IMG/VR virus record: IMGVR_UViG_3300020377_000394
Span: 1-43,632 of that record
Length of the DNA: 43,632 nt
Strand: one strand, 5' to 3'
Source: a virus
The first letter of the stretch is position 1, and each line of letters begins with the position of its first letter. Below are positions 5,453 to 35,994 of the stretch, in pieces. Below the pieces are notes generated by a model. The model searched no databases, was not told where the DNA came from, and saw only the letters and a program-made list of their open reading frames with translations. The position numbers were made by a program, and so were the translations under genes.

Positions 5453-5681
5453 TTAAATACTCCACAAAGTTGTCATATCCGCCTATATTTTCGCCATCTA
5501 TCCTAATCTGTGGAAATGTCCTAGCAGTAGGAAAGTTATCGGCAATAAACTTCATATCATAATCAGTTCCTAACTGTTGATACTCGTAAGTATGGCTAGT
5601 TTCTTGAACAAATGACTGAGCAGCAAACTTTGCTTTGTCACAGTAAGGACAATGCGTTTTTCCAAAAATTTCTATTTTCAT
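5439..5681 (-). CDS. Glutaredoxin
   Basis: 80-aa thioredoxin-fold protein with the active site THCPYCDKAK near the N-terminus, the cis-Pro region as TFPQIRIDG, and GGYDNFVEY for glutathione contact. It reduces disulfides with glutathione; likely clients are ribonucleotide reductase or the phage peroxiredoxin. Start at 5681 (ATGA overlap with the upstream stop, GGAG six bases before) rather than four codons earlier. Confidence 0.92.
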   Translation of the reverse strand: MKIEIFGKTHCPYCDKAKFAAQSFVQETSHTYEYQQLGTDYDMKFIADNFPTARTFPQIRIDGENIGGYDNFVEYLNGLR

Positions 5682-6259
5682 ATTTTTCTCCATGTGGACT
5701 TCTGTTTTTCTGCGGCAAAGTCATATATTGCCATAGGTAGTCCATCTCTATACATTACTCCTGCCCATGTTATCTCGACAGGTGGTGGACTCTTTTCTGC
5801 GAAAGGAAAAGGGCAATCTTTTAGCCACAATACAGTTGCCGTAGTCTTTTTCTCTCGTTTTCTAATCTTGTGATAGTGTATTTTTACTGTTTCTGTCTTT
5901 TCGTAGTTGAATACTCTACCATTATTATCAATGAAGAACTTGCCTCTGTGTCTCATTAGCCCTGTAATATCTTCTATCATGTATCGTAGCGGATATATAC
6001 TGTTCATTGGGCTTTGTATTCTACGAGTTCCAAGACTATGCCCCGACATATTTTTGTCGTCAAGTACTTGGTCATCTAGCCACAATATTCCGTCTACATA
6101 TTCTACGTTATCACTATGTATTACAAAGCAAGGAAAACATAAGTCATCTTTGTCGGTGATTAGATAGTCACCCATTTCTCGCTTTTTCTTCATCATGTAC
6201 CAAATTCTACGCTGTGAGCGTTGTCGAGCCTTGTAGCTCCTGTTCATTCTGCGATTCAA
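5678..6259 (-). CDS. Hypothetical protein with basic N-terminus
   Basis: 193 aa, no recognised domain. The first ~28 residues are extremely basic (RRMNRSYKARQRSQRR), then a mixed alpha/beta body with several Trp and a C-terminal YDFAAEKQKSTWRKI. The annotated start overlaps the upstream gene by 53 nt, and neither it nor internal Met codons (about 6196) has a strong ribosome site. The basic head suggests nucleic-acid contact (inference). Confidence 0.65.
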   Translation of the reverse strand: MNRRMNRSYKARQRSQRRIWYMMKKKREMGDYLITDKDDLCFPCFVIHSDNVEYVDGILWLDDQVLDDKNMSGHSLGTRRIQSPMNSIYPLRYMIEDITGLMRHRGKFFIDNNGRVFNYEKTETVKIHYHKIRKREKKTTATVLWLKDCPFPFAEKSPPPVEITWAGVMYRDGLPMAIYDFAAEKQKSTWRKI

Positions 6260-9074: not shown

Positions 9075-11336
9075 TTACTTATAAAATTTATCCCACTTAC
9101 CAAATGAGTAATCGTCTCCGACTTCGAAGTCGCAACCCACAGGGCAACCAGGAATCGAAACACCTCGATCTTTTTGAACGAAGGATTTCAGGTTACTACA
9201 ATAGACCTCCATTTCATCTTCTGGAACTTCGGCAAGAATCGAGTCATGCACTAGTCCGAAGATTTTGGAGTTCATTCCATTTCTATTGATGTAATGTTGC
9301 ATATCTATCGCACCCAATAGGTTTATGTCTGATGCGACTGATTGTACAAGAAAGTTAATTCCAGACCTTACTTCGTGAGACGCAATACCTTTATCTCGTG
9401 ATTTAGCATTGGGAAGCCTACGCTTCCTTCCGAACTGTGAATAAATGAACGCATTGGAACGAATGAACGCTCCACATTCATCTAACCACTTTTTCAGATT
9501 AGGGAATGATTGGAAATATTCTGAAATAACTCTACTTGCATCGTGCATTGAGAACTCTGAGCCAGAGTCCTTCGTAACCTGCCACGAAATCTTAGCTGGG
9601 CCAGCACCGTACATTATACCAAAGGTGACAGCTTTCGCCTGTTGACGCTTAGCGCCATAGAGTTCATCTACTTGTTCGACTTCGCATGGTAGATTAAAGA
9701 CTTGTTTTGCGATACTCGAGTGGAAGTTGCCTCCACTTTTGAATACCTCTTGCAAGCCCACGTCTTTCGCCAAGACTGCGGCAACATACACTTCTGCCGT
9801 TGTCAAGTCCATAGAAACGATTTTGTGTCCCTCTCGTGCTTTGATACAACCTTTCACAGTCGGGTTGTCTCTAGGCAACTGTTGCATATTCAACTTACCA
9901 CTAGAAGATAGACGGCCCGAAGTAGTACCATGCAGGTTAAATCCTGTACGTAATCTACTATCTCTATCAAGATTCGGTATAATTTTATCAAGATAGGTTG
10001 TTTTAATTTTGTTCTTCTGTCTAATTTCTAGTATGTGTTTGGGTACTGCGTGTTCTTCTGCAAGTTGTCCTAAGACTTCTGCATCAGTACTATGGGCACC
10101 TGTACCCGTTTTCTTACCCGTTGGGGTTAGATTTATATAGTCAAATAAAAGGGATCGTAGCTGAACTGTGGAGTTAGGGTTAAAGTCCTTACCCTGTGCC
10201 TTTTCAAAAAGTCTCACTTCAGGAAATTCGTATAGTTCTGCAACTGCGTTCTCTATATCTTCCTGCATTACACCCTGAGCAAACTCTAGTCGCTCACGAT
10301 GGAAAGGAACTCCATTGTTCTCTACTTGTCTTAAAAAGTTACAGCCCTCTAGTAGAATATTCTCATAGACCCATAAGAGTCTCTTGTTCTTCTCGATTGC
10401 TGGTCTCATCTTTTGATACAATGCCATTGTAACTACTGCGTCCATAGCCGCATAGTTCTGCATAATATCAAAAGGAATCATGTCATAACTAAAAGATTCT
10501 TTCAGTATGCCATGCTTTCTCCGATACTCAATACCCCAATCTTCTAACGGTTTTTCATAATCTCCATAAGGAGTATGCTTCATCGCTAGTTGTTTTAGAC
10601 CATGAGTACCAGGGTTCTCATCAAACATATAATGCATAAGCATTGTATCTTCGAAGTTTGGAAACTCAAAATTAAAATGGTAAATAAACCATTGTAAATC
10701 GAACTTCGCATTGTGAAATACTACAGTTTTCTTGTTGAAGAGTTCCTGCATTTTTGCTTCGACTTCTTCATCAATTACGTCTGCGTCACAATATATACCG
10801 TGATCAGGCTCATAAGACATAGAAAATCCAAGCATATAACCGTCCCTACAATATAACGCACTTGTTTCTGAGTCAAGTGAGATATATGGAAGTGGGGCGT
10901 CCACAGCGTGTTGTAGAAAATCCATGATTTTCTCTTTGTCTTGTATGCCATAACATTTATCCTCTGATAGTTTCTCTATCTTTAGTTCACCGCTAACATA
11001 GCCTGCAATACTGTCTACTGCTTCTTCAAAGGCTTTCTTAGCTTCAGGTTTAAATTTAATAATGGCAGGATTCATAAGAGCAAGAAACTTCTCGTCTATT
11101 ATCTTACCATTGTATTCGGTTACAGATGTTTTCCTAGTGTACTGTTTAAATGCCTCTGCACCCACTAGGATTACCCATTCGTAATCATCTGTATCTATCT
11201 CTAAATCAACATCTTTCTTAAGAACTTTCTTGACAGAACTATCAGAACATAATGCAAAACGGTCAAATTCAAACTCGAAATATTTATCGAAGTTTGTACT
11301 TGTTGGCTTTGTTTCAATAAGTGCTATTTGAGCCAT
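9075..11336 (-). CDS. polA: DNA polymerase, family A, with 3'-5' exonuclease
   Basis: 753-aa replicative polymerase. Exonuclease motifs: D155-x-E157 (SLDSETSA), N209-x3-D213 (FHNAKFD), Y295-x3-D299 (NYAAMDA). Polymerase motifs: A with catalytic D510 but divergent sequence (SMDLTTAEVY instead of DYSQIELR); B as R564-x3-K568-x3-F572-x3-Y576-G577; C as LVHDSILAE (H697, D698). The residue equivalent to E. coli 762 is Phe, the state often associated with virulent phages. No 5' nuclease domain. Clear GGAG ribosome site. The primase and nuclease-like genes are directly upstream. Confidence 0.96.
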   Translation of the reverse strand: MAQIALIETKPTSTNFDKYFEFEFDRFALCSDSSVKKVLKKDVDLEIDTDDYEWVILVGAEAFKQYTRKTSVTEYNGKIIDEKFLALMNPAIIKFKPEAKKAFEEAVDSIAGYVSGELKIEKLSEDKCYGIQDKEKIMDFLQHAVDAPLPYISLDSETSALYCRDGYMLGFSMSYEPDHGIYCDADVIDEEVEAKMQELFNKKTVVFHNAKFDLQWFIYHFNFEFPNFEDTMLMHYMFDENPGTHGLKQLAMKHTPYGDYEKPLEDWGIEYRRKHGILKESFSYDMIPFDIMQNYAAMDAVVTMALYQKMRPAIEKNKRLLWVYENILLEGCNFLRQVENNGVPFHRERLEFAQGVMQEDIENAVAELYEFPEVRLFEKAQGKDFNPNSTVQLRSLLFDYINLTPTGKKTGTGAHSTDAEVLGQLAEEHAVPKHILEIRQKNKIKTTYLDKIIPNLDRDSRLRTGFNLHGTTSGRLSSSGKLNMQQLPRDNPTVKGCIKAREGHKIVSMDLTTAEVYVAAVLAKDVGLQEVFKSGGNFHSSIAKQVFNLPCEVEQVDELYGAKRQQAKAVTFGIMYGAGPAKISWQVTKDSGSEFSMHDASRVISEYFQSFPNLKKWLDECGAFIRSNAFIYSQFGRKRRLPNAKSRDKGIASHEVRSGINFLVQSVASDINLLGAIDMQHYINRNGMNSKIFGLVHDSILAEVPEDEMEVYCSNLKSFVQKDRGVSIPGCPVGCDFEVGDDYSFGKWDKFYK

Positions 11337-12743: not shown

Positions 12744-13256
12744 TTTTTCTTCCATTGATTTAATTCTTTCAATCCCAAGAGTACTTTTGTGTTTCCACTC
12801 TAGTTCGTCCCCTAGCTTTTCAAAATCGGTCATTGGAGTACCGCCTGGGTCTAGCTCATCTTCGTAATATCGTGACTTCCATACTAATTCTAGCATTTGA
12901 AAGTAGACTGCAACCGCCTTATCTCTAAACTCTTTATCTCCCCATAAATACCATAGAAGCCAATATTCTTTATCTATACGACAGATTCTTATTTGTTGTT
13001 CTTTGTCCTCTAACTCTGACATAGCCCTCAATCTCTGACTACCAGCGATTGGGTACCAGTTTGGCATAACTAATATCGGAGCTTTCATACCATGTTCTTG
13101 CAGAGATTCTAGTAGAGGCTCATTCAAAGGAACATTCATAATATTCTCTTTTACTTTTGGTTGCTCTAGTAACCAACCAATACTTCTCACATACCAAGTA
13201 TGTGGAGGCATAGGTATAAGTTCTGCTGTACCTCTACTAATTCTATCTGCTGCCAT
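12732..13256 (-). CDS. ParB/Srx-like nuclease-fold protein
   Basis: 174 aa. The ParB N-terminal signature is visible as PNWYPIAGSQRLRAMSELE (the G-x-R-R/L box that binds CTP or ATP in this fold), with an upstream LLESLQEHGMKAPILV like the ParB LAxSIxxxGLxxP strand. No HTH domain follows; the C-terminal third is acidic and helical. It could be a nuclease, kinase or regulator. The stop codon TGA lies inside the -35 of the primase promoter. Confidence 0.7.
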   Translation of the reverse strand: MAADRISRGTAELIPMPPHTWYVRSIGWLLEQPKVKENIMNVPLNEPLLESLQEHGMKAPILVMPNWYPIAGSQRLRAMSELEDKEQQIRICRIDKEYWLLWYLWGDKEFRDKAVAVYFQMLELVWKSRYYEDELDPGGTPMTDFEKLGDELEWKHKSTLGIERIKSMEEKNNT

Positions 13257-13633
13257 TATGCTTCCCTGTCGTTATCCCACATTACGATATTCTTTTTTCT
13301 TGGAAAAAGATTACTTAATCTGCGTTCTTCTTTCCAATCTTTTACCCATTGTGAGCCGTTTCTTTCCGCATCTAAAAAGATTGCGTTAGTGAAGCCCAAA
13401 GGTATCAATACCATAAAGTGTACTATAATGCTTAGCACAATGTCATATCCTAGCCAGCCCATGTAAAAACTTGCTAGAAATCCAAAATATACTGACCACA
13501 TTGTAAATAGTACTAATGTAAAATAGAACTGTAAACTAGGGTCTGGTATATATCTTAAAGGATTGAATCTGTTGTCCATAACTAGACGCCAACAGTCTAC
13601 AACCCATAATATAAGTTTTCTACTTGTTTGCAT
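13256..13633 (-). CDS. Two- or three-span membrane protein
   Basis: 125 aa with hydrophobic segments at about residues 37-60 (YFTLVLFTMWSVYFGFL) and 66-88 (VLSIIVHFMVLIPLGF), and a basic cytoplasmic tail (KEERRLSNLFPRKK). No family recognised. It overlaps the peptide deformylase gene by 14 nt. Confidence 0.7.
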   Translation of the reverse strand: MQTSRKLILWVVDCWRLVMDNRFNPLRYIPDPSLQFYFTLVLFTMWSVYFGFLASFYMGWLGYDIVLSIIVHFMVLIPLGFTNAIFLDAERNGSQWVKDWKEERRLSNLFPRKKNIVMWDNDREA

Positions 13634-17029: not shown

Positions 17030-17749
17030 TTATTGAACTCTTTCTTTTCTAGCTGAACCGTCGTAGTCAGCACAAACTAAACCACGTCTTGTAAGCATGG
17101 TTTTTACACCTCTTACTGTTTTACCGATTTCATCAGCGATTGCTTCGACAGTCATGTCGTCAATCTCTAAGTCAGCTAGAGGATCAGCTTTGCCTGAACC
17201 CTTAGTTTCTTTCTGCTTAGGTATAGCGTTAATTTCGCCAGCTCTAAGTAATGAAAGAGCCTTACCTCTGATAGAGTTTACACTCTTACCAAGAGACTCA
17301 GCAATCTCTTCAATGAAAGCACCATCGTTGACCATGCCAACAAAAGTTGCTTCTTCGTCTTCGCTGTAAGTTTTTACAGACTCAACTTTAGGAGCAGGTT
17401 TAACATGCTCTGTAAGTTGCATTGATAAGATTTTCCCTTGAATAGACTTCGCACTAAAGTGTCCGCCTTCAAAGTTTGATGCAATCTCAGCATATGTGTA
17501 CTGACCTGAATTGTCAGTTACGAAGTTGCTAAGAGTGGCTTCTTGTTCGTCACTAAAAGATTTAGTGTTTGAGCTAGAAGCAAGCTCGACATCATAACCC
17601 ATCTTTCTAAGCTTTGAACTAACACTTCTTACTGAAGTTTCTAGCTCTTCTGCAGCGTTAGCAACAGTAGCTTGAGAGACTGGGCTTTCAGAACCTACGA
17701 AGTTCTCGAGAGATGATGTTCTCTCATCTGTCCATTTAGGTAATGCCAT
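17030..17749 (-). CDS. Tandem-repeat HTH (SANT/Myb-like) DNA-binding protein
   Basis: 239 aa built from three to four related helix-turn-helix units: residues ~4-52 (WTDERTSSLENF ... SVRSVSSKLRKMGY), ~63-112 (FSDEQEATLSNF ... SAKSIQGKIL), ~125-172 (YSEDEEATFVGM ... SVNSIRGKALSL) and a final half (TVEAIADEIGKTVRGVKTML). Each ends in a recognition-helix pattern S-x-x-S-I-x-x-K. Related single units are at 25534, 36558, 37649 and 42242. Its own terminator follows. Probably an abundant DNA-binding or regulatory protein; partners unknown. Confidence 0.75.
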   Translation of the reverse strand: MALPKWTDERTSSLENFVGSESPVSQATVANAAEELETSVRSVSSKLRKMGYDVELASSSNTKSFSDEQEATLSNFVTDNSGQYTYAEIASNFEGGHFSAKSIQGKILSMQLTEHVKPAPKVESVKTYSEDEEATFVGMVNDGAFIEEIAESLGKSVNSIRGKALSLLRAGEINAIPKQKETKGSGKADPLADLEIDDMTVEAIADEIGKTVRGVKTMLTRRGLVCADYDGSARKERVQ

Positions 17750-18506
17750 TTGTTTCTCCTAATAAATTAGCTAAATTTGTTATAATAATGACTCCTCGTT
17801 CACGAGCAGTCTGCGTTTTGGCTGACTCAATTCCTGACTCATTTATTAGATGAGTACAATCCTTTGTCAGACTATTTTTTACGGCATAGCCGTGTTGTTC
17901 CAGAACTTCTGCAGCACGAGCCTTCGTGGGATATGAATTGAGTCTACCTGAAATACAGACTGTTCCTACCGTTTCTCGTTTTACAACTTTAGTTGCTGAG
18001 AAACTGAAAGGTAGGTTTGAATCGTATTCGTTGGGGTAAAATTCTTCATCTAACCAAGTTAGAAGGTTTGCTGTGGCTTTTGGGCCAATACCCGCTTCAG
18101 TACAACTTTTCTCTGAAATATCTTCGAGTGTCGAAATATTCTCGCATAATTTTTGAGAAGCTGACCGACCGAAAAGTGGAATGGAGAAAGCTGGCAACAA
18201 GGTTTGTAAATCAACTGATTTTGACTTCTCAATTTCAGTAACTAACTTAGCTGCCATCTTCTCCGAGCCTAGTCTGTTGGATATATCCTCTACAGTAAGC
18301 TCATACAGTTCTGGGTAATCATCGAGCTGCAACTTAGATACAGTTGCTGGCCCGAGACCTTTTATTTTGAGAGCCTTTCCGAAATGCTCTAGTTTTTTAC
18401 TCCATTGTGCTGGACACATCTTGTTGAAACAATAAAGTAAGTCGTTAACAAACTCTAGTGTATTGTCACAAGAAGGACAGTTACTGGGTGGTAAAATTTC
18501 GTTCAA
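17736..18506 (-). CDS. NAD+-dependent DNA ligase, C-terminal half (Zn finger, HhH, BRCT)
   Basis: 256 aa matching the distal half of bacterial LigA. Four-Cys zinc finger C10-x2-C13 ... C26-x4-C31 (NCPSCDN, MCPAQ), helix-hairpin-helix repeats (IKGLGPATVSKL, EAGIGPKATANLL) and a C-terminal BRCT domain (VGTVCISGRLNSYPTKARA). No adenylation domain; that is in the separate gene at 22519-23475. The start is TTG 18506 with a GAGAGAG stretch upstream. Two-subunit NAD+ ligases are known in phage T5. Confidence 0.9.
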   Translation of the reverse strand: MNEILPPSNCPSCDNTLEFVNDLLYCFNKMCPAQWSKKLEHFGKALKIKGLGPATVSKLQLDDYPELYELTVEDISNRLGSEKMAAKLVTEIEKSKSVDLQTLLPAFSIPLFGRSASQKLCENISTLEDISEKSCTEAGIGPKATANLLTWLDEEFYPNEYDSNLPFSFSATKVVKRETVGTVCISGRLNSYPTKARAAEVLEQHGYAVKNSLTKDCTHLINESGIESAKTQTARERGVIIITNLANLLGETNGIT

Positions 18507-18717: not shown

Positions 18718-19657
18718 TTGCTTTAATATCTCCTAATATTCTTTCTGCCATTGCGGCATGGGCGTCTTCTAATGGGTGGTCGCGTTCACCGATTGGGTGT
18801 CCAAGGCGAGTTGCCATGTCATACATACCTTCTGACTCTAGCCATGGTAGTTCTGTTACGGCTGTCTTTCTATCTATATCTAGCGAATCCCACCAGTTGT
18901 TCGTGTTTTCATAAATAGGTTCGTCTAATAAAAATAGTAAAGGTCTGTATTGACCACTTGAATATAGGTAATGAAGCTGCGGTATGCCTTTTGCCTTCAG
19001 CATGTATTTTACCGCCATCATATTACCTAGTGTAAGACGCAAGTTATAATGTGCATTTCTAATACGCATCATATAGCCTCGCATATAATTATCTTCGCCA
19101 GGCTCGTACTGTTGGTCTATGTAAACAGTACTTGTCTTTTTTGCTTTGTATGTTGGTTTTTCTAATGCCATTCTGCCCCAAGCAGATACGCACCAACTCC
19201 AATCTCCAGTCAGGTTAGACAGTCTTAGATTCTCTAGTCTATTTATACCTGACCACATACATACTACTAAGTCAGGCCAGCCTTCTCTATCGTACTCTCT
19301 ATTAGTTTGGAACTGCTGTCCATAATGTACTTGCCCTATATCTGTATATGGTTTTGTAGGGTCTCCTGCTGGCAGAAGATTATTTCTATCTTCCTTAGCA
19401 ACATGTGATTTGTTTGTTACTTCTCCCGTGTGCCTTACATGTTTAACATTCTTCAGTCCTGTACTCCAGTATAACTTTCGTCCTATAACTGCGTTTTGTA
19501 CTACTCTCTGGATATAATCATTTCCAGCACCAACTTTAGCCTCGTTCCATTCTAGGTGGCCAGCCTCTCGTGAGACTATATTACTAAATCTGTCTCTCTT
19601 TTTGTCTTTGAGTTCCATTCCATTTGTGAATGAACACCCTGCCCATAGTATACTCAA
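18701..19657 (-). CDS. SGNH/GDSL hydrolase-like protein
   Basis: 318 aa if started at TTG 19657, which overlaps the carbamoyltransferase stop as TTGA and gives LSILWAGCSFTNG. Block I is GCSFTNG (catalytic Ser), a candidate block III Asn is in SGINRLENL, and the C-terminal D-x-x-H is EDAHAAMAERI. Such enzymes remove or transfer acyl groups on glycans or lipids. With the adjacent carbamoyltransferase and 2OG oxygenase, a role in modifying a sugar or modified base is inferred. The longer ATG start (19705) would overlap the upstream gene by 52 nt. Confidence 0.7.
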   Translation of the reverse strand: MSILWAGCSFTNGMELKDKKRDRFSNIVSREAGHLEWNEAKVGAGNDYIQRVVQNAVIGRKLYWSTGLKNVKHVRHTGEVTNKSHVAKEDRNNLLPAGDPTKPYTDIGQVHYGQQFQTNREYDREGWPDLVVCMWSGINRLENLRLSNLTGDWSWCVSAWGRMALEKPTYKAKKTSTVYIDQQYEPGEDNYMRGYMMRIRNAHYNLRLTLGNMMAVKYMLKAKGIPQLHYLYSSGQYRPLLFLLDEPIYENTNNWWDSLDIDRKTAVTELPWLESEGMYDMATRLGHPIGERDHPLEDAHAAMAERILGDIKANGLLK

Positions 19658-21009
19658 AATACTGGTACTCCATACTTCTTCTCGAACTCCACAGCGTCCT
19701 TCCAAGTATCTACTATTGGTTGTCCTTTTATATTCAAACTTGTATTCAATAACATGGGAATCCCTGTGCGTTCATAATATTCTTCTAAAATCCTTCTCAA
19801 TACACTAGGACAATCAGGCTCTACAGTTTGCACTCTACTTGTTCCGTCTACATGAACTACAGAACTGTAGTCATGCTTTGCTTTTGCAACATACTGCATA
19901 TACGGATTAGTTATTCCTTCAAAGTATTCGTCTGCAAACTCTGATAGTATAGCTGGAGCGAATGGTCGAAACTGTTGCCGTTTTTTAATGCGATTAACTC
20001 CGCGCTTAATATTATGCCTAACATCACCAAGAAGACTACGATTGCCCAATGCTCTGGGTCCAAATTCCGCTTTGCCATTTGCTACTCCTACTACTTTGTT
20101 TTTTAGTAACTGTGTTACTACTATTTTTGGGTTGATATGTTGTTGTATATCTGTGCCGATATACGGACTATACTTTATATGTTTTTTAGTGTATGATAAT
20201 GCCGCACCTAAACTACTCCCTGCATCGCCTGGGTTTGGATAAATCCAAACATTATCGAAGTAGTGGTGTAGTATTTTACTATTGGCTACACAGTTGAGTG
20301 CGACTCCACCTGCATAGCATAAATTTGTTCCCCAGTTAGCGGCTAGTCCTACTAACTTTTCGATTTCTAACTCTGCGTGAGCCTGGGCACTTGCAGCGAT
20401 ATCGTAGGGGTGATGTCCTTTAAAATCTTGTAATGAGAATCCTTTGTGCCAGTTTGCCCAGTCATTGAAGCACCACAGCATATCTACGCATTTCTCTCCG
20501 TAGGCTGCCATTCCCATAGTTATATATTCATCTTCATTTGGCTTCAAACCAATACGCTTGGTGATTGCTGAGTAGAACAGGCCAATACTATATGGATAAT
20601 TTTTTTCATAAACTTTTTTGAAATTTTTATCTTTTACTTGCCAAATACTGCAAGTATTCCATTCTCCAATCGCATCAATCACGAGAACTACCGCGTCCTC
20701 GGTAAATGGTGAAGTATAGTACGCTCCTGTTGCGTGGCTTTCGTGATGTTTTGTATGGTAATCACATTCATCAAAAATTTTTGTTGAAACAGGGACTTGT
20801 GAATGTGCTACACGTCTTTCGTTCTTTAGCGGTACATCTTCGTAAAAAACCGATATATCTGCGTCCACATTTCTGAGATACTCTGGGTTGATTGGGTCAT
20901 TCTTTTTTCTTGTCAATCTCTCGGCGTGTTTAGCCCAGACGACTTGGTCATCTTCAAGTAATGCTACTGAGGCATCATGAAATCCCTCTGAAATCCCTTT
21001 TACAATCAA
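19654..21009 (-). CDS. Carbamoyltransferase (NodU/TobZ/CmcH family)
   Basis: 451 aa from TTG 21009 (TTGA overlap with the oxygenase stop, AGAGGAG upstream), giving LIVKGISEGFHDASVALLED. The N-terminal Kae1/ASKHA-like domain shows HHESHATGAYYTSPF with metal-binding His residues and VLVIDAIGEWNTCSI; the C-terminal YrdC-like region includes EFGPRALGNRSLLGD and FRPFAPAILSE. It transfers carbamoyl from carbamoyl phosphate via carbamoyl-AMP to a hydroxyl group. Acceptor unknown: modified DNA base, sugar or nucleoside. Confidence 0.92.
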   Translation of the reverse strand: MIVKGISEGFHDASVALLEDDQVVWAKHAERLTRKKNDPINPEYLRNVDADISVFYEDVPLKNERRVAHSQVPVSTKIFDECDYHTKHHESHATGAYYTSPFTEDAVVLVIDAIGEWNTCSIWQVKDKNFKKVYEKNYPYSIGLFYSAITKRIGLKPNEDEYITMGMAAYGEKCVDMLWCFNDWANWHKGFSLQDFKGHHPYDIAASAQAHAELEIEKLVGLAANWGTNLCYAGGVALNCVANSKILHHYFDNVWIYPNPGDAGSSLGAALSYTKKHIKYSPYIGTDIQQHINPKIVVTQLLKNKVVGVANGKAEFGPRALGNRSLLGDVRHNIKRGVNRIKKRQQFRPFAPAILSEFADEYFEGITNPYMQYVAKAKHDYSSVVHVDGTSRVQTVEPDCPSVLRRILEEYYERTGIPMLLNTSLNIKGQPIVDTWKDAVEFEKKYGVPVF

Positions 21010-21560
21010 GCTCCTCTTTCTCCTTTTCTCCAAACTGTGTAATTATATTTTAGTGCACCCGTTACCCTACCCGCTCGGTGTAGATGTGCTGATGGGAACA
21101 TTATGCACATACCTGTTTTCGGTTTCCAACTGTCTATTCCTTCTAGTACGAAATCTCCTCCGTTGAAGCCCTCATTCAAAAAGACACTACAAGATAATCT
21201 ATTTGCAGGTGTCCTTTCGAATAAATCTTCTACTGATTCATCTTCATCTCTGTGCCAACCTACTTCCTGTCCTTCAGTATACATATTACAAAAATGAGTA
21301 TATTTATTGTCAATAAGATTGAAGTTATAACTGCCCACATTAAACTCATTGAAAACACTTTCGAACAAAGGTAAATACTTATCAGTAGGATTACCAACAT
21401 GTCTAAATAGCCGTCCTGTCTGCCAACCATTGTAGTTTCCTTCTTTTATGTCTCGGTTTATAAAATTATCTACAGAATTGATTATTTCCTGACATTGGTC
21501 AGGGGTAAGCATATCTTCTATTACTGAAAAATATGTGTGTCCTACTCTATGAATTTTCAC
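21006..21560 (-). CDS. 2OG-Fe(II) oxygenase
   Basis: 184 aa from GTG 21560 (MKIHRVGHTYFSVIEDMLT); a 29-codon longer frame runs inside the neighbouring small gene and is less likely. Iron ligands: H-x-D in EVGWHRDEDES and distal His in SAHLHRAGRVTGALKYN, with the following basic residue for 2OG. The EGFNGGDFVLEG turn is typical of the fold. Coupled to the carbamoyltransferase, so it may create the hydroxyl that is carbamoylated (inference). Confidence 0.83.
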   Translation of the reverse strand: MKIHRVGHTYFSVIEDMLTPDQCQEIINSVDNFINRDIKEGNYNGWQTGRLFRHVGNPTDKYLPLFESVFNEFNVGSYNFNLIDNKYTHFCNMYTEGQEVGWHRDEDESVEDLFERTPANRLSCSVFLNEGFNGGDFVLEGIDSWKPKTGMCIMFPSAHLHRAGRVTGALKYNYTVWRKGERGA

Positions 21561-21681
21561 GGGGCAAATCGTCCCAGCGATAAAACTTTCTAGTTTCAAA
21601 GTGCCAGTACCAACCATTGTACTTGTGTTGGTCTGCTGGTTTGTCACTTTCGTGAAACTTTCTTTTGTCTGGTGTATTCAT
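21547..21681 (-). CDS. 44-aa hypothetical protein
   Basis: ATG 21681 overlaps the GIY-YIG-like stop (ATGA). Polar, Trp/Tyr-rich product (HKYNGWYWHFETRKFYRWDD). It may be a small zinc-free binding module; no family recognised. A start two codons upstream (21687) is possible. Confidence 0.55.
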   Translation of the reverse strand: MNTPDKRKFHESDKPADQHKYNGWYWHFETRKFYRWDDLPRENS

Positions 21682-27750: not shown

Positions 27751-28036
27751 ATTCTTCTCCGTCTAATACTCTAGTATGTTCTTTGCCATAGAGCATGACA
27801 GCGTAATGAATAATCTTCATCAAGTCAGCAGGATTGAATCCTTCTTTCTTGCCATAACGCTGAGCGTATTTAATGATATTCCCAATACAAAAACCTACTC
27901 CATGTTCTGCATCGAATATGAACTCAGTAGATTGAAACTTACCCTTTGCATAGTGCTGTTCGTAAGTCTTGTCTATGTATTGTTTTACTACTTCAAGAGC
28001 AATATCTTCATTAAATTTGTAGTCTATCTTCTCCAT
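27734..28036 (-). CDS. DUF3310-like small phage protein
   Basis: 100 aa. The block FCIGNIIKYAQRYGKKEGFN followed by PADLMKIIHYAVML is the DUF3310 signature (G-N-x-x-K-Y-x-x-R ... D-L-x-K). These are common in T7- and T4-like phages, sometimes labelled nucleotide-kinase-like; activity is not established. Confidence 0.7.
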   Translation of the reverse strand: MEKIDYKFNEDIALEVVKQYIDKTYEQHYAKGKFQSTEFIFDAEHGVGFCIGNIIKYAQRYGKKEGFNPADLMKIIHYAVMLYGKEHTRVLDGEEYGTKK

Positions 28037-28679
28037 ACCAAAATCCTAATTGTGTTAGTCGAGCAGTTTCTTTGGTATCACCAAAGCCTGCGTCCTCAGG
28101 AGCGTGTAGCATACGAGCATCATACATGATTAGACGATTGTATCTATTTTCTACTTTCGTGTGTACTTTGTACTTCTTACTGACTGGAAAGTCAAAGAAG
28201 TTACCCTGAAATACTGTATCAGGCTTCTTCCACTTCCCAATCTTTGGGTCTTTAGTATCGAATAACCCACCTTCTGGATTCTCTAATAATAGCGTTCCAG
28301 AATTTGGTGGTGGATTCGGTGTTAAATAAATAACACAGGCATACATTGATGACCTAGTATTTGGTCTAAAGTGGTCGTCTGAATGTAGCCAGTTAAATCT
28401 GTTTTGTTTTTCTCCGTAACCCAGATTAAACGCACAACAGGCTTTCATGCTCTCAAAGTCATGTACCTGCACATTTGCAATATCCTTCCAACGATTTCGT
28501 AAATAGATTCTGTTTTCCCACCACCATTGTCTGTTTGGTATGGCTCTGTGGCCTGGGTGGAATATCGTTGGTCTGTTGTTTGTTTTCTTTTTAGACGTAC
28601 CTCTCCAGAAGTCTAACCTAAGTGCTCGTTTTCGCACTTCGTCAGGATTAGGATAGAAGTCATCTACTACCCAAATCAC
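28011..28679 (-). CDS. 2OG-Fe(II) oxygenase-like (DUF6445-type) protein
   Basis: 222 aa. H-x-D is in FNWLHSDDHFRPN, the beta-helix turn in NPPPNSGTLLLENPEGG, and the distal His in RLIMYDARMLHAPEDAG, followed by RLTQLGFW. This fits the DUF6445 branch of the 2OG oxygenase superfamily. Substrate unknown. Confidence 0.75.
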   Translation of the reverse strand: MIWVVDDFYPNPDEVRKRALRLDFWRGTSKKKTNNRPTIFHPGHRAIPNRQWWWENRIYLRNRWKDIANVQVHDFESMKACCAFNLGYGEKQNRFNWLHSDDHFRPNTRSSMYACVIYLTPNPPPNSGTLLLENPEGGLFDTKDPKIGKWKKPDTVFQGNFFDFPVSKKYKVHTKVENRYNRLIMYDARMLHAPEDAGFGDTKETARLTQLGFWYGEDRLQI

Positions 28680-29345: not shown

Positions 29346-29385
29346 ATTATACATAAAATTTGAAGTCGTGTCAAGAACTATTTTT
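29346..29385 (-). promoter_or_regulatory. sigma70-type phage promoter
   Basis: Upstream AAAAATAGTTC, -35 TTGACA (29374-29369), 17-nt spacer, -10 TATAAT (29351-29346). Start about 29339, ahead of the folded leader. Confidence 0.88.
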
Positions 29386-29400
29386 AAGTTCGTTTAATAA

Positions 29401-29772
29401 CTACTTACTGTTTATCTTATCTTTCGCTGTACCAGCGTATAAGCCAAACCATGCTGCACCAGCACCAACAATGATACTGATTAGACCTGATTGCTCAAGT
29501 GTTGGGTCTGGCAAATTCATAAACCACATTGTGGAATAGTAAAGTAAGAATATGTATATTGAAAGGAAAGCTCTCGGGAAGATTCTCCATGCGTCAATCA
29601 TGTTAGATAAAAATATCCAACGTTGCCATGGATTTTCTGGCTCCTTGTTTGCTTCCATTTCTACAATCTTAGCTTTGAGATTGCTATTTTCAGTAACGAG
29701 TTCCATGAACTTACTTAAGTCAATTTCAACTTCGTTTCTTGACATATCACCGCTAAATCTTTCATCGGCCAT
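29401..29772 (-). CDS. Holin-like membrane protein
   Basis: 123 aa. Soluble charged N-terminus with a short coiled coil (KFMELVTENSNLKAKIVEME), then two hydrophobic spans (FLSIYIFLLYYSTMWFM and GLISIIVGAGAAWFGLYAG) and a short charged tail. The last span and GxGAAWFGLY motif resemble phage holins, but it is 5 kb from the lysozyme. Could be any small membrane protein. Confidence 0.55.
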   Translation of the reverse strand: MADERFSGDMSRNEVEIDLSKFMELVTENSNLKAKIVEMEANKEPENPWQRWIFLSNMIDAWRIFPRAFLSIYIFLLYYSTMWFMNLPDPTLEQSGLISIIVGAGAAWFGLYAGTAKDKINSK

Positions 29773-30490
29773 TTATATCTCCAATCCAGTCCAACCATTC
29801 TTCTCTCCATACCTTGCCAGGGTGCTCCTCATGATTTACATTACACCAGTCACACTTAGGTGGGTGGAAATGGAAAGAGATTGATATTCTTGGGCCTAGG
29901 GTTTCTACCCTATGGTAAAGTTTCGGTGGTAGCCAGAGAAGGTCGCCCTCCTCTAAGTCTATCACTTGGTCTACCGTTGCCTCGCTAGGTTTGCAGTCAT
30001 ATTCCGTTTCATTGTAAATATACCAACGGACTGTGCCCCTAACGTGGAACAGAAAGTTTTCGGTAGTGTCTGCATGGACAGGAAAACATCTAGCCTTCTT
30101 TTGACTAGACATATAAATATTCGCTTGTCCTCTACCGAAATACTCTTCAAAATCTTCGCATTGGTTCCAGAGTGTCTTGTTCAAGAACTCTGATAGGGTT
30201 AGTACGAAACTACTACCTTCCCACCATTTCTGGAAGATTTCACGTTTTTGTAACTTGTGTCTTTGTTTCTTGTGGCAATACTTCTTGCCTGTGTTCTTAT
30301 CTATTATCTGTAGTTGTGGCATGCGGTCATGCCCCATCAATTTATAACTATTTAAATACTGGTCTGCCTCTCTCCAACTAAAGTAATCTTTGAAGCGTGG
30401 GCCATCACCTTTTACGACAAACCACTCTGCTTTCTTCCTCTTTTCTAGGAACTCTTCGAATGGCATTTTTAGTAGTTCATCTAATTTCAT
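29762..30490 (-). CDS. JmjC/cupin-type oxygenase
   Basis: 242 aa. H-x-D in CFPVHADTTENFLFHVRGTV, the strand VIDLEEGDLLWLPPKLYHRV giving the distal His, and SISFHFHP at the end match JmjC/ribosomal-oxygenase proteins (YcfD/ROXA-like). An additional Cys pair (KCDWCNVNH) near the C-terminus could bind zinc. Members hydroxylate ribosomal proteins or other protein side chains; target here unknown. Confidence 0.75.
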   Translation of the reverse strand: MKLDELLKMPFEEFLEKRKKAEWFVVKGDGPRFKDYFSWREADQYLNSYKLMGHDRMPQLQIIDKNTGKKYCHKKQRHKLQKREIFQKWWEGSSFVLTLSEFLNKTLWNQCEDFEEYFGRGQANIYMSSQKKARCFPVHADTTENFLFHVRGTVRWYIYNETEYDCKPSEATVDQVIDLEEGDLLWLPPKLYHRVETLGPRISISFHFHPPKCDWCNVNHEEHPGKVWREEWLDWIGDINGR

Positions 30491-31026
30491 TGGTAATCCT
30501 GTGCGTCGCTTTGTCTTCGTTCTTCTTCTTTGCTTATCTCGTTAAATCCCCAGTCGCCACTCCATACTGCAACTGCATATCGAGTGCCTTCCCATACTCC
30601 CTCTACCCAATGTAGAGCCATAGCTGAGAATAATACTGCATCACCTTTTTCTAGGTGGCAGTTCTCTCCTTCAATTATTAAATCACCACCTTCAAACTCA
30701 TCATTCAACAAAATAGAAATACTTAGATTTCTATTTCGTTTCATAACTGTTTTACCTTTTGTTTCTCTACCATCTCTGGAGTACCACACAGCGTCTCTAT
30801 GTGGAGCGAAACTTTGTCCAACTTCATAACATTGGACTCTGGTTGCTATAATCTTTTCATCTCCTAGTATTTCTTGTGATTTATCTAGGACTGCTTGTGG
30901 CACTTGAAACTCTTGTATCTCGTATCTATTTTGTAAGTGGTCTGATTCTTTCTTGTTGCAAGAGTCTATAACTTGCTGACATTCTTCATCAGTAATAAAG
31001 TTTTTATATAACTTAAAACCTTTCAT
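30487..31026 (-). CDS. 2OG-Fe(II) oxygenase
   Basis: 179 aa from ATG 31026 (ATGA overlap with the cytochrome stop). H-x-D in SFAPHRDAVWYS, the E-F-E-G-G-D turn in LLNDEFEGGDLIIEG, distal His in SAMALHWVEGVWEGTRYAV with the 2OG-binding Arg. Like prolyl-4-hydroxylase relatives. Substrate unknown. Confidence 0.85.
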   Translation of the reverse strand: MKGFKLYKNFITDEECQQVIDSCNKKESDHLQNRYEIQEFQVPQAVLDKSQEILGDEKIIATRVQCYEVGQSFAPHRDAVWYSRDGRETKGKTVMKRNRNLSISILLNDEFEGGDLIIEGENCHLEKGDAVLFSAMALHWVEGVWEGTRYAVAVWSGDWGFNEISKEEERRQSDAQDYQ

Positions 31027-31472
31027 TTTTCTGGAAAGCCTGCCTGTACAAACTCTCCAATGGTAGCTATTTCTGCATCTGATAACATGGCTGCTTGTCC
31101 CCACATGGTAGATGACATACTACCTACTTCTTCTCTATTTCTGTAAGCATTTAGTCTGCCTACTATGTAATCTTTACTTTGTCCTGTAAGTGCTGGGAAT
31201 ACTGCCATACCTTGTCCTTGCTGTCCATGACAAGCTGCACAACCGCCCCATAAACTTCTGATACTGCTAAATTCATCGCCAGCAGCTAACGCTTGTTTTC
31301 TTCTTTCCATTTCGGCAGGTGTTCCCCACATCTCTACATACTCTCTATAACATTCCCCTGTGCATGAGCCTACACTCTTGCCTCCAGTATACTCTAGGTC
31401 TGGATATATTACTAATGCAAAGAACAGGGCTATGATACCTGTCCCGCTGATTGCTTTTAAAAATTCTGACAT
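31023..31472 (-). CDS. Membrane-anchored c-type cytochrome
   Basis: 149 aa. N-terminal anchor or uncleaved signal at residues ~9-24 (SGTGIIALFFALVIYP), then a periplasmic linker with C37/C41, and a class I cytochrome c domain: heme motif C78-A-A-C81-H82 (GGCAACHGQQGQG), YIVGRLNAYRNRE helix, axial Met123 in SSTMWGQAA, and a closing helix. It would carry electrons at the outer face of the inner membrane and needs the host cytochrome c maturation system. It lies between two 2OG oxygenases with 4-nt coupling downstream, so it is part of the phage operon rather than host contamination. Confidence 0.85.
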   Translation of the reverse strand: MSEFLKAISGTGIIALFFALVIYPDLEYTGGKSVGSCTGECYREYVEMWGTPAEMERRKQALAAGDEFSSIRSLWGGCAACHGQQGQGMAVFPALTGQSKDYIVGRLNAYRNREEVGSMSSTMWGQAAMLSDAEIATIGEFVQAGFPEK

Positions 31473-31475
31473 AAT

Positions 31476-32015
31476 TCATTTTTGTAAAAACCACACTACT
31501 AAACTATCTCTATGTCCTTCAAGCACGGGCAGTACCTGATGCTCTACGTTTGGCATAAAGAGTATTGGGTGGTCTTTCTTTAATTTTACTACTGTTTTCT
31601 GCCCTTCCATTACTATACCGCCAGGGTGGAATCTATCTGGCATTTTAAACTCCATCTCTCCACCTTCAAACTCGCTAGGGTCGTTGAGTAGACAGGACAT
31701 TGATAATTTTCTATATCCTCTGCCATCGCCGTCAGTATGCCACTTATAAAAGTGTCCTTTATGATACCTAGCTATTTGTAATATCTCTGGTGTATAATCG
31801 TAACCCTGTTCGTTAATCCATTCTTCCACTAATTGAATACCTTCTGGCTGTGGAGCGCCTACTCTTTTACTTCTTTGTATGTATCTACACTCGGTCTGTC
31901 TGAAGTTCGGGTCATAACCTCTGCCAGTAAATCCGTCTATTCCTAGATGAGTACTAAAAGTATTGGTACAAATGTCTATTATTTCTTGTGGTAGACGTTC
32001 GCACTCATGTATCAT
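31476..32015 (-). CDS. 2OG-Fe(II) oxygenase
   Basis: 179 aa from ATG 32015 (ATGA with the glycosyltransferase stop). H-x-D in YKWHTDGDGRGYRK, S-E-F-E-G-G-E turn, distal His in MPNVEHQVLPVLEGHRDSLV with Arg for 2OG. Its position after a glycosyltransferase is compatible with glycan or protein hydroxylation (inference). Confidence 0.85.
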   Translation of the reverse strand: MIHECERLPQEIIDICTNTFSTHLGIDGFTGRGYDPNFRQTECRYIQRSKRVGAPQPEGIQLVEEWINEQGYDYTPEILQIARYHKGHFYKWHTDGDGRGYRKLSMSCLLNDPSEFEGGEMEFKMPDRFHPGGIVMEGQKTVVKLKKDHPILFMPNVEHQVLPVLEGHRDSLVVWFLQK

Positions 32016-32830
32016 TGTAGAGCTTCCCACAAGTCTTGCACTTTAAATGCTGTTTTCCACAATTTACTTGCAATATCTTTTCTAGGATAGCTTGCTTTAC
32101 CATGTGGTGAGTACTTGGGGTGCCAGATTTGTGAACTCAATGAAGTAAAATGTAAATGCCATATGTCATCAATATCATACTGTTGTTGTGTCTTTCTATC
32201 AATGGCTGGCCCATCAGTTACATAGCCGTCAAATGAGTTCCATCTAGCGTCTATTCTTTTAATTATTACATCTTCTACCTTATCTCTGTAAGGACTTCCT
32301 ATCTTTTCACTAAATACATTCTTGTAGCCCCAGTTACACTTTGCTATCTGTTCGATTGGGTCTATGTAGCGTGCTGCCTTTTCACAATCTATCAAAATGA
32401 CACTATCACTAAACCAACCTCTTTTGTACTCCGTATCTTCAAACTTCTTAGGATTCATGTTTAGCGTGTCCCAAACCATTCCAAAAGCGCAGTCGCCTAG
32501 GTCTGTATCATATAGTTCTCCTATATCTCTGAAGTTGATTTGGTCGCAGTCTAGGTAGATTGCACGCCCTTCCCAATTACATAGTGTGGGGATAGCATAT
32601 CTAAAACATGTGAATGGCGTTCCCCAACCTGTCTTATCCCAGTCCTTAAACATACTAGGTCTTAACATTGTAATGTCTAGCTTCCTGTCGGTATTTTGTA
32701 ATAGAGTATACACTAATATTCTCTCTATCCACTTATCTTCCCATTCAGAAGTTCCTATAAAAATTCTAATTGTATCGTCTGACAACTTGTTTTCCATTTC
32801 AAAAAAGTGCTTTTCTTGTTCTTTATTCAT
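32012..32830 (-). CDS. Glycosyltransferase, GT8-like
   Basis: 272 aa. The nucleotide-sugar D-x-D motif is in RAIYLDCDQINFRDIGELY, preceded by FTCFRYAIPTLCNWEG, the GT8 arrangement. IWHLHFTSL near the end fits the family His motif. Donor and acceptor cannot be told; DNA, lipopolysaccharide or virion protein glycosylation are possible. Confidence 0.78.
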   Translation of the reverse strand: MNKEQEKHFFEMENKLSDDTIRIFIGTSEWEDKWIERILVYTLLQNTDRKLDITMLRPSMFKDWDKTGWGTPFTCFRYAIPTLCNWEGRAIYLDCDQINFRDIGELYDTDLGDCAFGMVWDTLNMNPKKFEDTEYKRGWFSDSVILIDCEKAARYIDPIEQIAKCNWGYKNVFSEKIGSPYRDKVEDVIIKRIDARWNSFDGYVTDGPAIDRKTQQQYDIDDIWHLHFTSLSSQIWHPKYSPHGKASYPRKDIASKLWKTAFKVQDLWEALQ

Positions 32831-33383: not shown

Positions 33384-34037
33384 TCAGTACGTGGTTATAT
33401 ATTTAATTGCACCTTCCAACTCGGAAGTATACTTTTCTGGTATGCTTACATCAATCACTACTCTAGGGCGACTTCCTGTATTGTGGTCAGCAAACCATGT
33501 CTTACCATCTTTGCCCATTGTACCACTAACGCATGTCCAGTTTCCAGCACCTACTTGACCTCTCCATTGGTCTGTAACGGTTACTTGCTTTTTACCCTGA
33601 ACTGATATTGAATAACCACTTCCTGAGTTGTGAATAAATCTTATGTAATGTCTGCCTTTATTTTTAGAGTTGTGCCACCCTGTAAAGCCCCACCTTGGTG
33701 GTTGGACTGTAAGTGTATCGTAATACCACTTATCATGTTGCTGGAAGTGTTCTCCCATTCCATACTGGAACAGCTTCAAGAAGAAATACTTTTCTGTTCT
33801 TAATCTTTTCTTCTGTCTGCCAGCTCTTAGTGGTGCAACTTCGCCCTCATAGGACTGATAGTTGTGTGTTTTAGGATAGCCTACAAACTTCTCATCTGCC
33901 ATCAAGGTCTTGAGTGTGGCAAATGTTATATCTGGTTTTGGTAAAGCCTCAAATGTATGAGGTAATCTATATAGATTTGTTGCGAAACTATCTAGTTTCT
34001 GTAGTAATCTTATGTTTTTAATTGGTATTTGTTTCAT
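33384..34037 (-). CDS. Hypothetical protein
   Basis: 217 aa, basic, Trp-rich. RWGFTGWHNSKNKGRHYIRF and GNWTCVSGTM ... WFADHNTGSRPRVVIDVSIP look like a beta-rich fold with several His/Asn, but no known site is complete. Overlaps the lipoprotein gene by 20 nt. Confidence 0.65.
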   Translation of the reverse strand: MKQIPIKNIRLLQKLDSFATNLYRLPHTFEALPKPDITFATLKTLMADEKFVGYPKTHNYQSYEGEVAPLRAGRQKKRLRTEKYFFLKLFQYGMGEHFQQHDKWYYDTLTVQPPRWGFTGWHNSKNKGRHYIRFIHNSGSGYSISVQGKKQVTVTDQWRGQVGAGNWTCVSGTMGKDGKTWFADHNTGSRPRVVIDVSIPEKYTSELEGAIKYITTY

Positions 34038-34419
34038 TTTTCAAAGCGTCTGGGTCAGTTACTTTTTCGTAGTAAACCACGACCTCTTTGAGTTCGGTTA
34101 TATATCGCTTTAATTCTTGCATATTATAACTCATCAACTCGTAATCAGGGATTGACATAGCCACAAATACTATCTGACCATGCTCCTTAGTCAACCTGTC
34201 ATGAAACTCATCTATATTTTTATCTGAAACAACGTACCATAATGGCTCTTTGAGGTCTATCTCCCTCGGCATAACAGGTTGTGTTATAATCCTGTCCATC
34301 GGCTTTGCCGTTACTTCTATTTGTTTAGTCGGTATCAGACTGCAACTCGACGCCATTATCGAGAGAGTCAATAGTCCTACTAATTTCTTCGATTGAGTCA
34401 AATACATCTTTCGTTCCAT
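34018..34419 (-). CDS. o-spanin-like outer-membrane lipoprotein (Rz1 role)
   Basis: 133 aa (or from ATG 34407). A basic start (QSKK) and hydrophobic signal lead to a lipobox around LSIMASSCSLIP, giving a lipidated Cys. The gene begins inside the i-spanin gene in another frame, the classic Rz/Rz1 overlap (95 nt). The mature part is longer than most Rz1 proteins. It would fuse the outer membrane with the inner during lysis. Confidence 0.7.
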   Translation of the reverse strand: MERKMYLTQSKKLVGLLTLSIMASSCSLIPTKQIEVTAKPMDRIITQPVMPREIDLKEPLWYVVSDKNIDEFHDRLTKEHGQIVFVAMSIPDYELMSYNMQELKRYITELKEVVVYYEKVTDPDALKNETNTN

Positions 34420-34720
34420 TGTTGATTCTTGGTTCTAGCAACCCAGGCTTTGCAGCCGCTAGTTTGGTTAAATTATGTCTACGGAAGATGTCCATGTATC
34501 TGTCCATTTCTTTCTGTGCTTCCTGAGACTTCTTTTGCAACTCGGTCAGTTGGGTTGTCTGAAGAGCAAAGTCATTCTGCATTGTTTTCATGGCTTCCTC
34601 TTGAGTTGCTACTGCACTTTCTAGTGCAATGTTATTCGCTTTGAGAGTTACATTTTCTTGGTATAACCAGTATCCTCCCAAAGATAATACTAAAATGATT
34701 CCTATTAGTAATTGATTCAT
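34325..34720 (-). CDS. i-spanin-like protein (Rz role)
   Basis: 131 aa. N-terminal membrane anchor (LLIGIILVLSLGGYWLY) then a periplasmic coiled coil (EEAMKTMQNDFALQTTQLTE) and FRRHNLTKLAAAKPGLLEPR, an ending typical of T4-like marine phage spanins. Pairs with the overlapping lipoprotein gene to disrupt the outer membrane. Confidence 0.78.
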   Translation of the reverse strand: MNQLLIGIILVLSLGGYWLYQENVTLKANNIALESAVATQEEAMKTMQNDFALQTTQLTELQKKSQEAQKEMDRYMDIFRRHNLTKLAAAKPGLLEPRINNGTKDVFDSIEEISRTIDSLDNGVELQSDTD

Positions 34721-35001
34721 AACTGTTCTATCCTATAATTCAGTCCATCTGCACCTCTGATTTCAACTAACTCGCCATCATCGGTGGTGAACGACAGGTA
34801 TTTTTCCTGCTTCTTGTGGAACTTCTTTACTACAAATTCTCTGTCGTCAGAGTCGCCCCACGTCGAATTATAACTGACTAACAACTTATATCTTGGGAAC
34901 AGAACATAATACATCTCCTCCCATGCCCATACTAAGAATCTCCATATCGGCATATAAACTTTCGCAAGATAGTAATTAAGTTGTTGGAAGAACCTTTTCA
35001 T
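34717..35001 (-). CDS. Small protein of the lysis cluster
   Basis: 94 aa. Amphipathic aromatic N-terminus (YYLAKVYMPIWRFLVWAWEE) likely membrane-associated, then a small beta domain (LLVSYNSTWGDSDDREFVVK). 4-nt overlaps with lysozyme and i-spanin genes place it in the lysis operon; role unknown, possibly a holin or lysis regulator. Confidence 0.6.
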   Translation of the reverse strand: MKRFFQQLNYYLAKVYMPIWRFLVWAWEEMYYVLFPRYKLLVSYNSTWGDSDDREFVVKKFHKKQEKYLSFTTDDGELVEIRGADGLNYRIEQL

Positions 35002-35423
35002 GCGCTAAACAAATCTGCCTCTGCTTGTCTACGCCTTGTTAATCCTTCTAGGACTTTCCCGCCAGCTTTGTTCCACCTCATCATCTGAGCTGGCACGCCG
35101 TCGTAGTCGCCTGCGTTTAAAACTTTCAAAAGCGTACTTGCTTTCAAGTTACCTCCGCCTAAATTATAAACCCACGATACCATTGCATCAAATTGATTTT
35201 GATTTAAGCCTACAGTCACTAGGTTATTTACATAGCCTTCGTACTCTGCTAACTCGTCTTTCAGCATTTGTTCTGCTTCTGCTTCTGTGATTGTCTGTCC
35301 TTCGTACACGCCTTTCGTGTGTCCGTAGCCGATTGTCCATACACCTGCTGGGCATTTGTATGCTTCGAGTTCACAACCCTCAAAGTGTTTGATTAAGTCT
35401 AAACCTGTTTTAGATGTTTCCAT
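34998..35423 (-). CDS. Lysozyme/endolysin, GH24
   Basis: 141 aa. Catalytic triad spacing E15-x8-C24-x5-T30 (HFEGCELEAYKCPAGVWT) followed by IGYGHTKG is the phage GH24 (R21/lambdoid-type) arrangement with Cys replacing T4 Asp20. It cleaves the glycan strands of murein. No signal anchor, so a holin is required. A terminator separates it from Hsp20 upstream. Confidence 0.93.
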   Translation of the reverse strand: METSKTGLDLIKHFEGCELEAYKCPAGVWTIGYGHTKGVYEGQTITEAEAEQMLKDELAEYEGYVNNLVTVGLNQNQFDAMVSWVYNLGGGNLKASTLLKVLNAGDYDGVPAQMMRWNKAGGKVLEGLTRRRQAEADLFSA

Positions 35424-35955: not shown

Positions 35956-35994
35956 ATTATACCAATTTTTGAACTTCATGTCAAGAACTATTTT
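35956..35994 (-). promoter_or_regulatory. sigma70-type promoter of Hsp20
   Basis: Upstream AAAATAGTTC, -35 TTGACA (35984-35979), 17-nt spacer, -10 TATAAT (35961-35956). Start about 35949, directly at hairpin H1 of the leader. No sigma32-like element. Confidence 0.88.

Follow-up and report, generated by a model that had tools for sequence, protein, structure and literature searches.

A predicted membrane-tethered monoheme cytochrome c of marine phages and its association with alternative oxidase

Viruses are well known to carry genes that act on the electron flow of photosynthesis. To our knowledge, their genes acting on the respiration of heterotrophs are few and mostly single observations. 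The nearest known kind of system is that of cyanophages, where PTOX and plastocyanin amount to a phage quinol oxidase and a phage electron carrier working on the host chain (PMC10452541). Other genes of respiratory electron transfer have been reported in viruses, namely reads of cbb3 subunit I (PMC3474794), cydAB (PMC12043954), ccoP (PMC12713726), and soxD (PMC8190135). As described in these sources, they encode oxidase subunits or a cytochrome subunit of sulfur oxidation, and none is a monoheme tethered cytochrome c. Our search, which covered an open-access collection of papers, turned up neither a monoheme cytochrome c of a phage nor an alternative oxidase (AOX) in a phage of heterotrophs, which does not prove that they are absent. 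Here, we analyze a cytochrome gene (CYTC) of the IMG/VR record IMGVR_UViG_3300020377_000394, whose whole stretch of 43,632 nucleotides we call the window, together with its relatives. Its relatives in many phages share with the cyanophage pair the logic of an oxidase plus a carrier, but here a heme c protein takes the part of the carrier, and infection of cyanobacteria is not known for these phages.

Judging by its gene content, the window is a T5-like phage. Its DNA polymerase shares 44.9% identity with the polymerases of T5-like phages of Vibrio and Pantoea, and its other phage genes include a split NAD ligase, a D5-like regulator, a DnaB-type helicase, an endolysin, spanins, and MazG. The CYTC gene (31023..31472, minus strand) is intact, begins with ATG, and encodes 149 residues. 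The original prediction described a CAACH heme motif, an axial Met in SSTMWGQAA, and an N-terminal anchor, and all three were recovered: the heme site is C78-A-A-C81-H82, the only CxxCH of the protein, Met123 lies within SSTMWGQAA, and a hydrophobic helix, the putative anchor, is predicted for residues 2-25, with no AxA cleavage site. The protein matches the profile PF00034 with 31.1 bits, above the gathering score of 21.3, and Protein Data Bank entries for class I cytochromes with E-values as good as 3e-14 for the single sequence and 4e-19 for a profile. At the level of sequence, its identity as a class I monoheme cytochrome c is confirmed far beyond chance. Membership of cytochrome c4 was ruled out, as CYTC has one heme domain and c4 has two. 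Among the relatives, AxA, where a signal peptidase could cut, occurs in 6 of the 31 distinct N-termini compared. Hence, tethering may not be universal, and part of the relatives may end up free in the periplasm. The protein also carries a second invariant motif, C37-x3-C41-Y42, that had been overlooked before.

The structure prediction and family search proposed along with the original prediction returned a class I fold. An initial model was built from 31 rows, i.e. 31 of the 33 full-length distinct viral sequences, with L028 and L031 omitted as near copies and L050 and L051 as truncated. It had a middling pLDDT of 68 and was superseded by a model from 103 rows (the window and 102 of 146 references), with a mean pLDDT of 90.1. 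In the latter, the helix 2-25 is followed by helices 40-49, which opens with the Cx3C motif, and 52-64, and then by the heme domain. The modeled heme domain (residues 66-147) matches Thioalkalivibrio c546/556 (Z 13.6), Vibrio cytochrome c554 (Z 12.8), and Pseudomonas nautica c552 (Z 12.4) over 79-82 residues. A further match, with Z 11.3, is the c4 subunit of the P. aeruginosa bc1-cbb3 supercomplex (8smr). A library of viral structures gave no counterpart of CYTC at E 0.001.

These matches place CYTC close to the monoheme cytochromes c554 of Vibrio parahaemolyticus and c552 of P. nautica, with which it shares CxxCH, the distal Met, and the arrangement of helices (Z 12-14, 35-40% identity in Foldseek alignments). 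The heme domain also resembles the single lobes of cytochrome c4 (Z 7-11), although c4 has two hemes and CYTC one. Cytochromes c554, c552, and c4 are soluble. Unlike them, CYTC adds a predicted N-terminal anchor and a two-helix linker with an invariant Cx3CY. The anchor, a CxGECY motif, the linker, CxxCH, and MW occur in the same order in a membrane-tethered cytochrome family of Halieaceae and their relatives. The cellular members of this family mostly have GxGPxLxGQ where the phages have FPxLxGQ, stand alone on the chromosome, and are around 28-35% identical to the phage rows (L133). Tethered class I carriers leading from bc1 to cytochrome oxidase include cytochrome cy of Rhodobacter and CycM of Paracoccus. 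None of the sequence tests gave these as relatives of CYTC, and Foldseek gave the cy-containing supercomplex 6xkw (chain p) no more than a poor match (E 0.71, probability 0.09), such that the likeness is at most functional.

With the protein alone as the query against viral contigs, we found 51 CYTC loci at 50-100% identity, and the CYTC region of the window is present at 100% identity in another viral contig (L001). A wider scan with the cytochrome alignment gave 491 viral stretches encoding relatives, of which the best 80 were kept; in another scan the best 80 of 156 were kept. The heme site, the Met, and C37-x3-C41-Y42 are all invariant in the 33 distinct full-length viral sequences. We built tree sets from which identical sequences and those with profile coverage below 45% (cytochrome) or 75% (AOX) were removed. 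There, CxxCH is found in 98 of the 98 distinct viral sequences and the Cx3C-aromatic motif in 96; one of the two remaining sequences is truncated and the other (L265) is a different cytochrome. The exceptions in the tree sets as a whole are truncated sequences (L187, L050, L051, L323), one with masked bases (L056), and again L265. Across the 103 aligned viral and cellular members there are 14 invariant columns, including C37, C41, Y42, C78, C81, H82, and M123. The original prediction would have been refuted by homologues lacking the heme Cys or the Met, or by related phage contigs lacking the gene; instead, all 103 aligned homologues keep the Cys, His, and Met, and related T5-like contigs carry the gene. 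The median pairwise dN/dS of 0.20 (467 of 528 pairs) points to purifying selection on CYTC. The family had no match in PHROG, nor any in 50,697 annotated phage records. Taken with the result for viral structures, this shows that present annotation misses it. A search of plasmids gave no match either.

In the window, CYTC is part of a run of genes on the minus strand. It is preceded by a family 8 glycosyltransferase (32012..32830, PF01501, 2.5e-6) and by a 2OG-Fe(II) oxygenase (31476..32030, PF13640, 5.9e-14) whose stop is 3 nt ahead of the CYTC start. A second 2OG-Fe(II) oxygenase follows (30487..31026, PF13640, 2.2e-10), with its ATG at 31026 overlapping the CYTC stop (ATGA), and then a JmjC/cupin-type oxygenase (29762..30490, PF08007, 8.7e-14) and a membrane protein of phrog_10198 (29401..29772), which by synteny adjoins CYTC on its upstream side in some of the other T5-like relatives. 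The endolysin and Rz-like spanin genes (34018..35423, phrog_7, 739, and 812) lie upstream of CYTC in the same direction. A perfect sigma-70 promoter, TTGACA-17-TATAAT, occurs upstream of endolysin, spanins, and the CYTC run (35956..35984, minus strand), and the next one is downstream of the run (29346..29374, minus strand). CYTC, codirectional with endolysin and spanins, sits between the promoters at 35956 and 29374. There are nine such sites in the window, from 1638 to 42159, all on the minus strand, and none in shuffled sequences; CYTC is presumably transcribed by the host RNA polymerase. Five genes of the window encode 2OG/JmjC/DUF6445-type oxygenases (21006-21647, 28011-28679, 29762-30490, 30487-31026, and 31476-32030) and another a Nol-like carbamoyltransferase (19654-21033). 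With the family 8 glycosyltransferase, they are a possible set for the modification of glycans or bases.

The genes around CYTC differ between phages. The T5-like relatives L247 and L006 have many genes in common with the window, largely collinear. In other T5-like relatives, CYTC follows a gene of phrog_624 and precedes MazG, with no adjoining 2OG oxygenases, and in L003, L006, L008, and L010 a perfect promoter lies around 600 bp upstream of CYTC, just ahead of the phrog_624-type gene. In T4-like contigs, whose NrdB is around 66% identical to that of Pelagibacter phage HTVC008M, CYTC comes after nrdB and usually ahead of a glutaredoxin gene. A third set of contigs (L030-L035, L044-L049) has yet other neighbours. 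Hence, the translational coupling to a 2OG oxygenase noted in the original prediction is real in the window, where the ATGA overlap exists, but it is confined to the lineage of this phage, and the search of marine viral contigs showed that the 2OG setting is not general. A general functional tie between CYTC and 2OG oxygenases was ruled out because the neighbours change among relatives.

A different association is recurrent. Several T4-like CYTC loci have a full AOX gene downstream, and full-length AOX genes are found on marine viral contigs including L134 (7213-7821, minus strand), L172, L175, and L044. The AOX is genuine, with PF01786 matches at 3e-70 (profile positions 11-214 of 216) and 1e-67 (15-214). 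Scanning with an AOX alignment gave 471 viral stretches; among the best 80 of these 471, which were kept, 33 have CYTC within 10 kb, always on the same strand. Conversely, AOX accompanies 14 of the 51 cytochrome loci of the first scan and 6 of 80 more distant ones. We also searched 35 whole AOX contigs, drawn from the 80 loci and mostly the longest, and found CYTC in 16, never beyond around 12.2 kb from AOX in contigs of 18 to 250 kb. A mean distance as small was obtained in 0 of 10,000 uniform simulations, although related phages are not independent. The same caveat holds for all the linkage counts, and conserved T4-like synteny explains part of them. The genes occur in two opposite orders with tight overlap, as cytochrome, AOX, and glutaredoxin with four-base overlaps (ATGA) in L175 and as AOX then cytochrome, again with ATGA, in L172, which argues that the association arose repeatedly or was rearranged. 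Against a strict pairing, CYTC contigs of 135, 119, and 103 kb, among 23 chosen records that we examined, have no AOX, and none lies within the 43.6 kb of the window, which may be a fragment. When phage AOX were compared with annotated phage records, the only match was Phage C48C1, whose AOX is annotated as hypothetical in its GenBank record, and no cyanophage PTOX matched at E 1e-3. Contig L265 has an AOX (1457-2056) and its different cytochrome c, devoid of Cx3C (9878-10213), possibly an independent pairing.

We then considered the cellular relatives. The CYTC architecture was found in 27 of 390 genomes of Halieaceae and others of the order, in matches of full or nearly full length at E 1e-36 or better, one of which (L323) runs off the end of its contig. 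The family-level search, at E 1e-25, gave 60 of 120 genomes, mostly with full-length matches. When 340 genomes sampled from the whole class were searched at the same threshold, a Halieaceae MAG was alone in having the full-length family, so the cellular range looks narrow as sampled. The cellular homologues stand alone, outside respiratory operons, in the 22 loci that we read (the motif was detected by script in 18). In the same 390 genomes, AOX is present in 17 (E 1e-60 or better) and together with CYTC in 8, a co-occurrence with a Fisher p of 3e-6, uncorrected for ancestry and confounded by it. In the Halieaceae-type genomes G002, G741, and G724, the two genes are on different contigs or 400 kb apart. 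The AOX tree joins the phage sequences with the AOX of these three genomes (100/100), apart from the other sampled cellular AOX. The cytochrome tree puts most phage sequences in a single group beside the cellular family, with weak deep support (91/55); three viral rows fall on the cellular side, and the T5-like group of the window is well supported (100/93). By these trees and searches, the nearest sampled cellular relatives of phage CYTC and AOX are in Halieaceae, where the two are unlinked. The same data make a gammaproteobacterial host near Halieaceae plausible; searches with NrdB and DNA polymerase named no host. One bacterial contig with PgsA- and UvrC-like genes, identified by eye (L407, G415:C8), has an AOX (5472-6098, minus strand) nested in the phage AOX clade, which suggests transfer between phage and bacterium.

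We favor, with moderate confidence, the explanation that CYTC is a tethered electron carrier supplied by the phage for host respiration and that in many relatives it is part of a remodeling set with AOX. The host would export the protein and load its heme, leaving it tethered to the inner membrane on the periplasmic side, where it would most likely ferry electrons from the host quinol-cytochrome c reductase (bc1) to cytochrome oxidase, keeping respiration, the proton motive force, and redox balance going during infection. Its export, heme attachment, electron partners, topology, expression, benefit, and host are what we infer from sequences. The predicted fold, the ligands, and the putative tether suit a membrane-attached carrier between bc1 and the oxidase, and cytochrome c4, a structural neighbour of CYTC, is located in the bc1-cbb3 supercomplex (8smr). 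AOX oxidises quinol without cytochrome c. The paired AOX of many relatives would drain quinol electrons straight to O2, and since it bypasses bc1 and cytochrome c, the two proteins would not form one linear path. Instead, because AOX needs no cytochrome c, a phage with both would adjust two branches at the end of the respiratory chain, one conserving energy and the other relieving excess reductant. In T4-like phages, the surrounding nrd and glutaredoxin genes fit a demand for nucleotide synthesis. The action on host respiration put forward in the original prediction is supported by the clustering with AOX in relatives, with electron transfer and a periplasmic location as its presumed elements.

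Other explanations account for some of the same observations. The phage protein might take the place of a host cytochrome from its own family that is short-lived or shut off, and so avert respiratory failure before lysis, following the logic of D1/psbA. In favor of this rather unlikely reading, the family on the host side shares the anchor, the CxGECY motif, and the heme domain with CYTC, and the CYTC unit of the window lies behind a perfect sigma-70 promoter. Against it, at 28-35% identity to L133 the phage sequences are too diverged for a recent copy, and replacement by itself leaves the pairing with AOX unexplained. It seems even less probable that CYTC is a periplasmic electron sink or peroxidase-like carrier which, with AOX, keeps oxygen radicals and over-reduction in check during the work of those phage enzymes that depend on oxygen (NrdB, 2OG oxygenases, AurF-like proteins). 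The T5-like phages have different neighbours, and CYTC is predicted to be across the membrane from those enzymes, even if it is found among nrdA, nrdB, 2OG, and glutaredoxin genes in T4-like relatives, has an AurF-like diiron protein nearby in L134, and has an invariant Cys pair that could be redox-active.

That CYTC poisons or diverts host respiration, for takeover, superinfection exclusion, or the timing of lysis through the proton motive force, would fit its likely sharing of a transcription unit with endolysin and spanins in the window. However, the other T5-like relatives have their own promoter just before the phrog_624 gene, and intact ligands under strong conservation suit a working carrier, which makes this quite improbable. 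There is hardly any chance that CYTC is a cellular gene misassembled into viral contigs or a non-functional passenger. Such contamination is warned of for viral metagenomes in PMC3877843, but phage genes flank CYTC in both T5-like and T4-like contigs, the identical gene occurs on L001, and the heme site (98 of 98 distinct viral sequences) and dN/dS are those of a maintained gene. Cellular contamination as its source was ruled out by the phage neighbours in several lineages. As a candidate auxiliary metabolic gene, CYTC lies in a genuine phage genome with conserved phage neighbours and has cellular homologues.

Considering the respiratory carrier that we favor across the whole set of phages, we give roughly even credence to a broader claim: T4-like and T5-like phages of marine heterotrophs possess parts of a module for respiratory remodeling, made of a tethered cytochrome c and AOX, which was joined from host genes located apart in Halieaceae chromosomes and which sometimes shares a single translational unit with glutaredoxin. 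The linkage of a conserved heme carrier and a terminal oxidase in many marine phages makes a clear prediction on O2 use, ATP, and redox in infected cells. The relatives of CYTC are common in marine viruses and often found beside a respiratory oxidase, which suggests that viruses adjust host respiration. If this is true, the module would be the non-photosynthetic counterpart of PTOX and plastocyanin in cyanophages, and virus-driven control of oxygen respiration would be widespread in the ocean. The invariant thiol pair of CxGECY may add a second redox centre to the carrier, based on thiols or a metal.

The contigs of the relatives revealed a few additional elements. A family of membrane proteins absent from Pfam and PHROG is encoded in the window (13256-13633), in L038 (5579-5980), and in L044 (5576-5974), and it lies directly upstream of the cytochrome in L030-L033, L038-L040, and L044-L047. 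The T4-like CYTC region of L134 encodes the AurF-like diiron oxygenase (17036-18127, minus strand, PF11583, 6e-9) as well as a protein that looks like a 2OG oxygenase (10263-11273, minus strand). The latter matches phrog_2954 and phrog_3531, which are labelled ferrochelatase, probably wrongly. Finally, the T4-like phage contigs L053, L054, L055, and L056 are binned in MAGs named Sphingobacteriales, Synechococcus, and Planctomycetaceae, and are probably misbinned.
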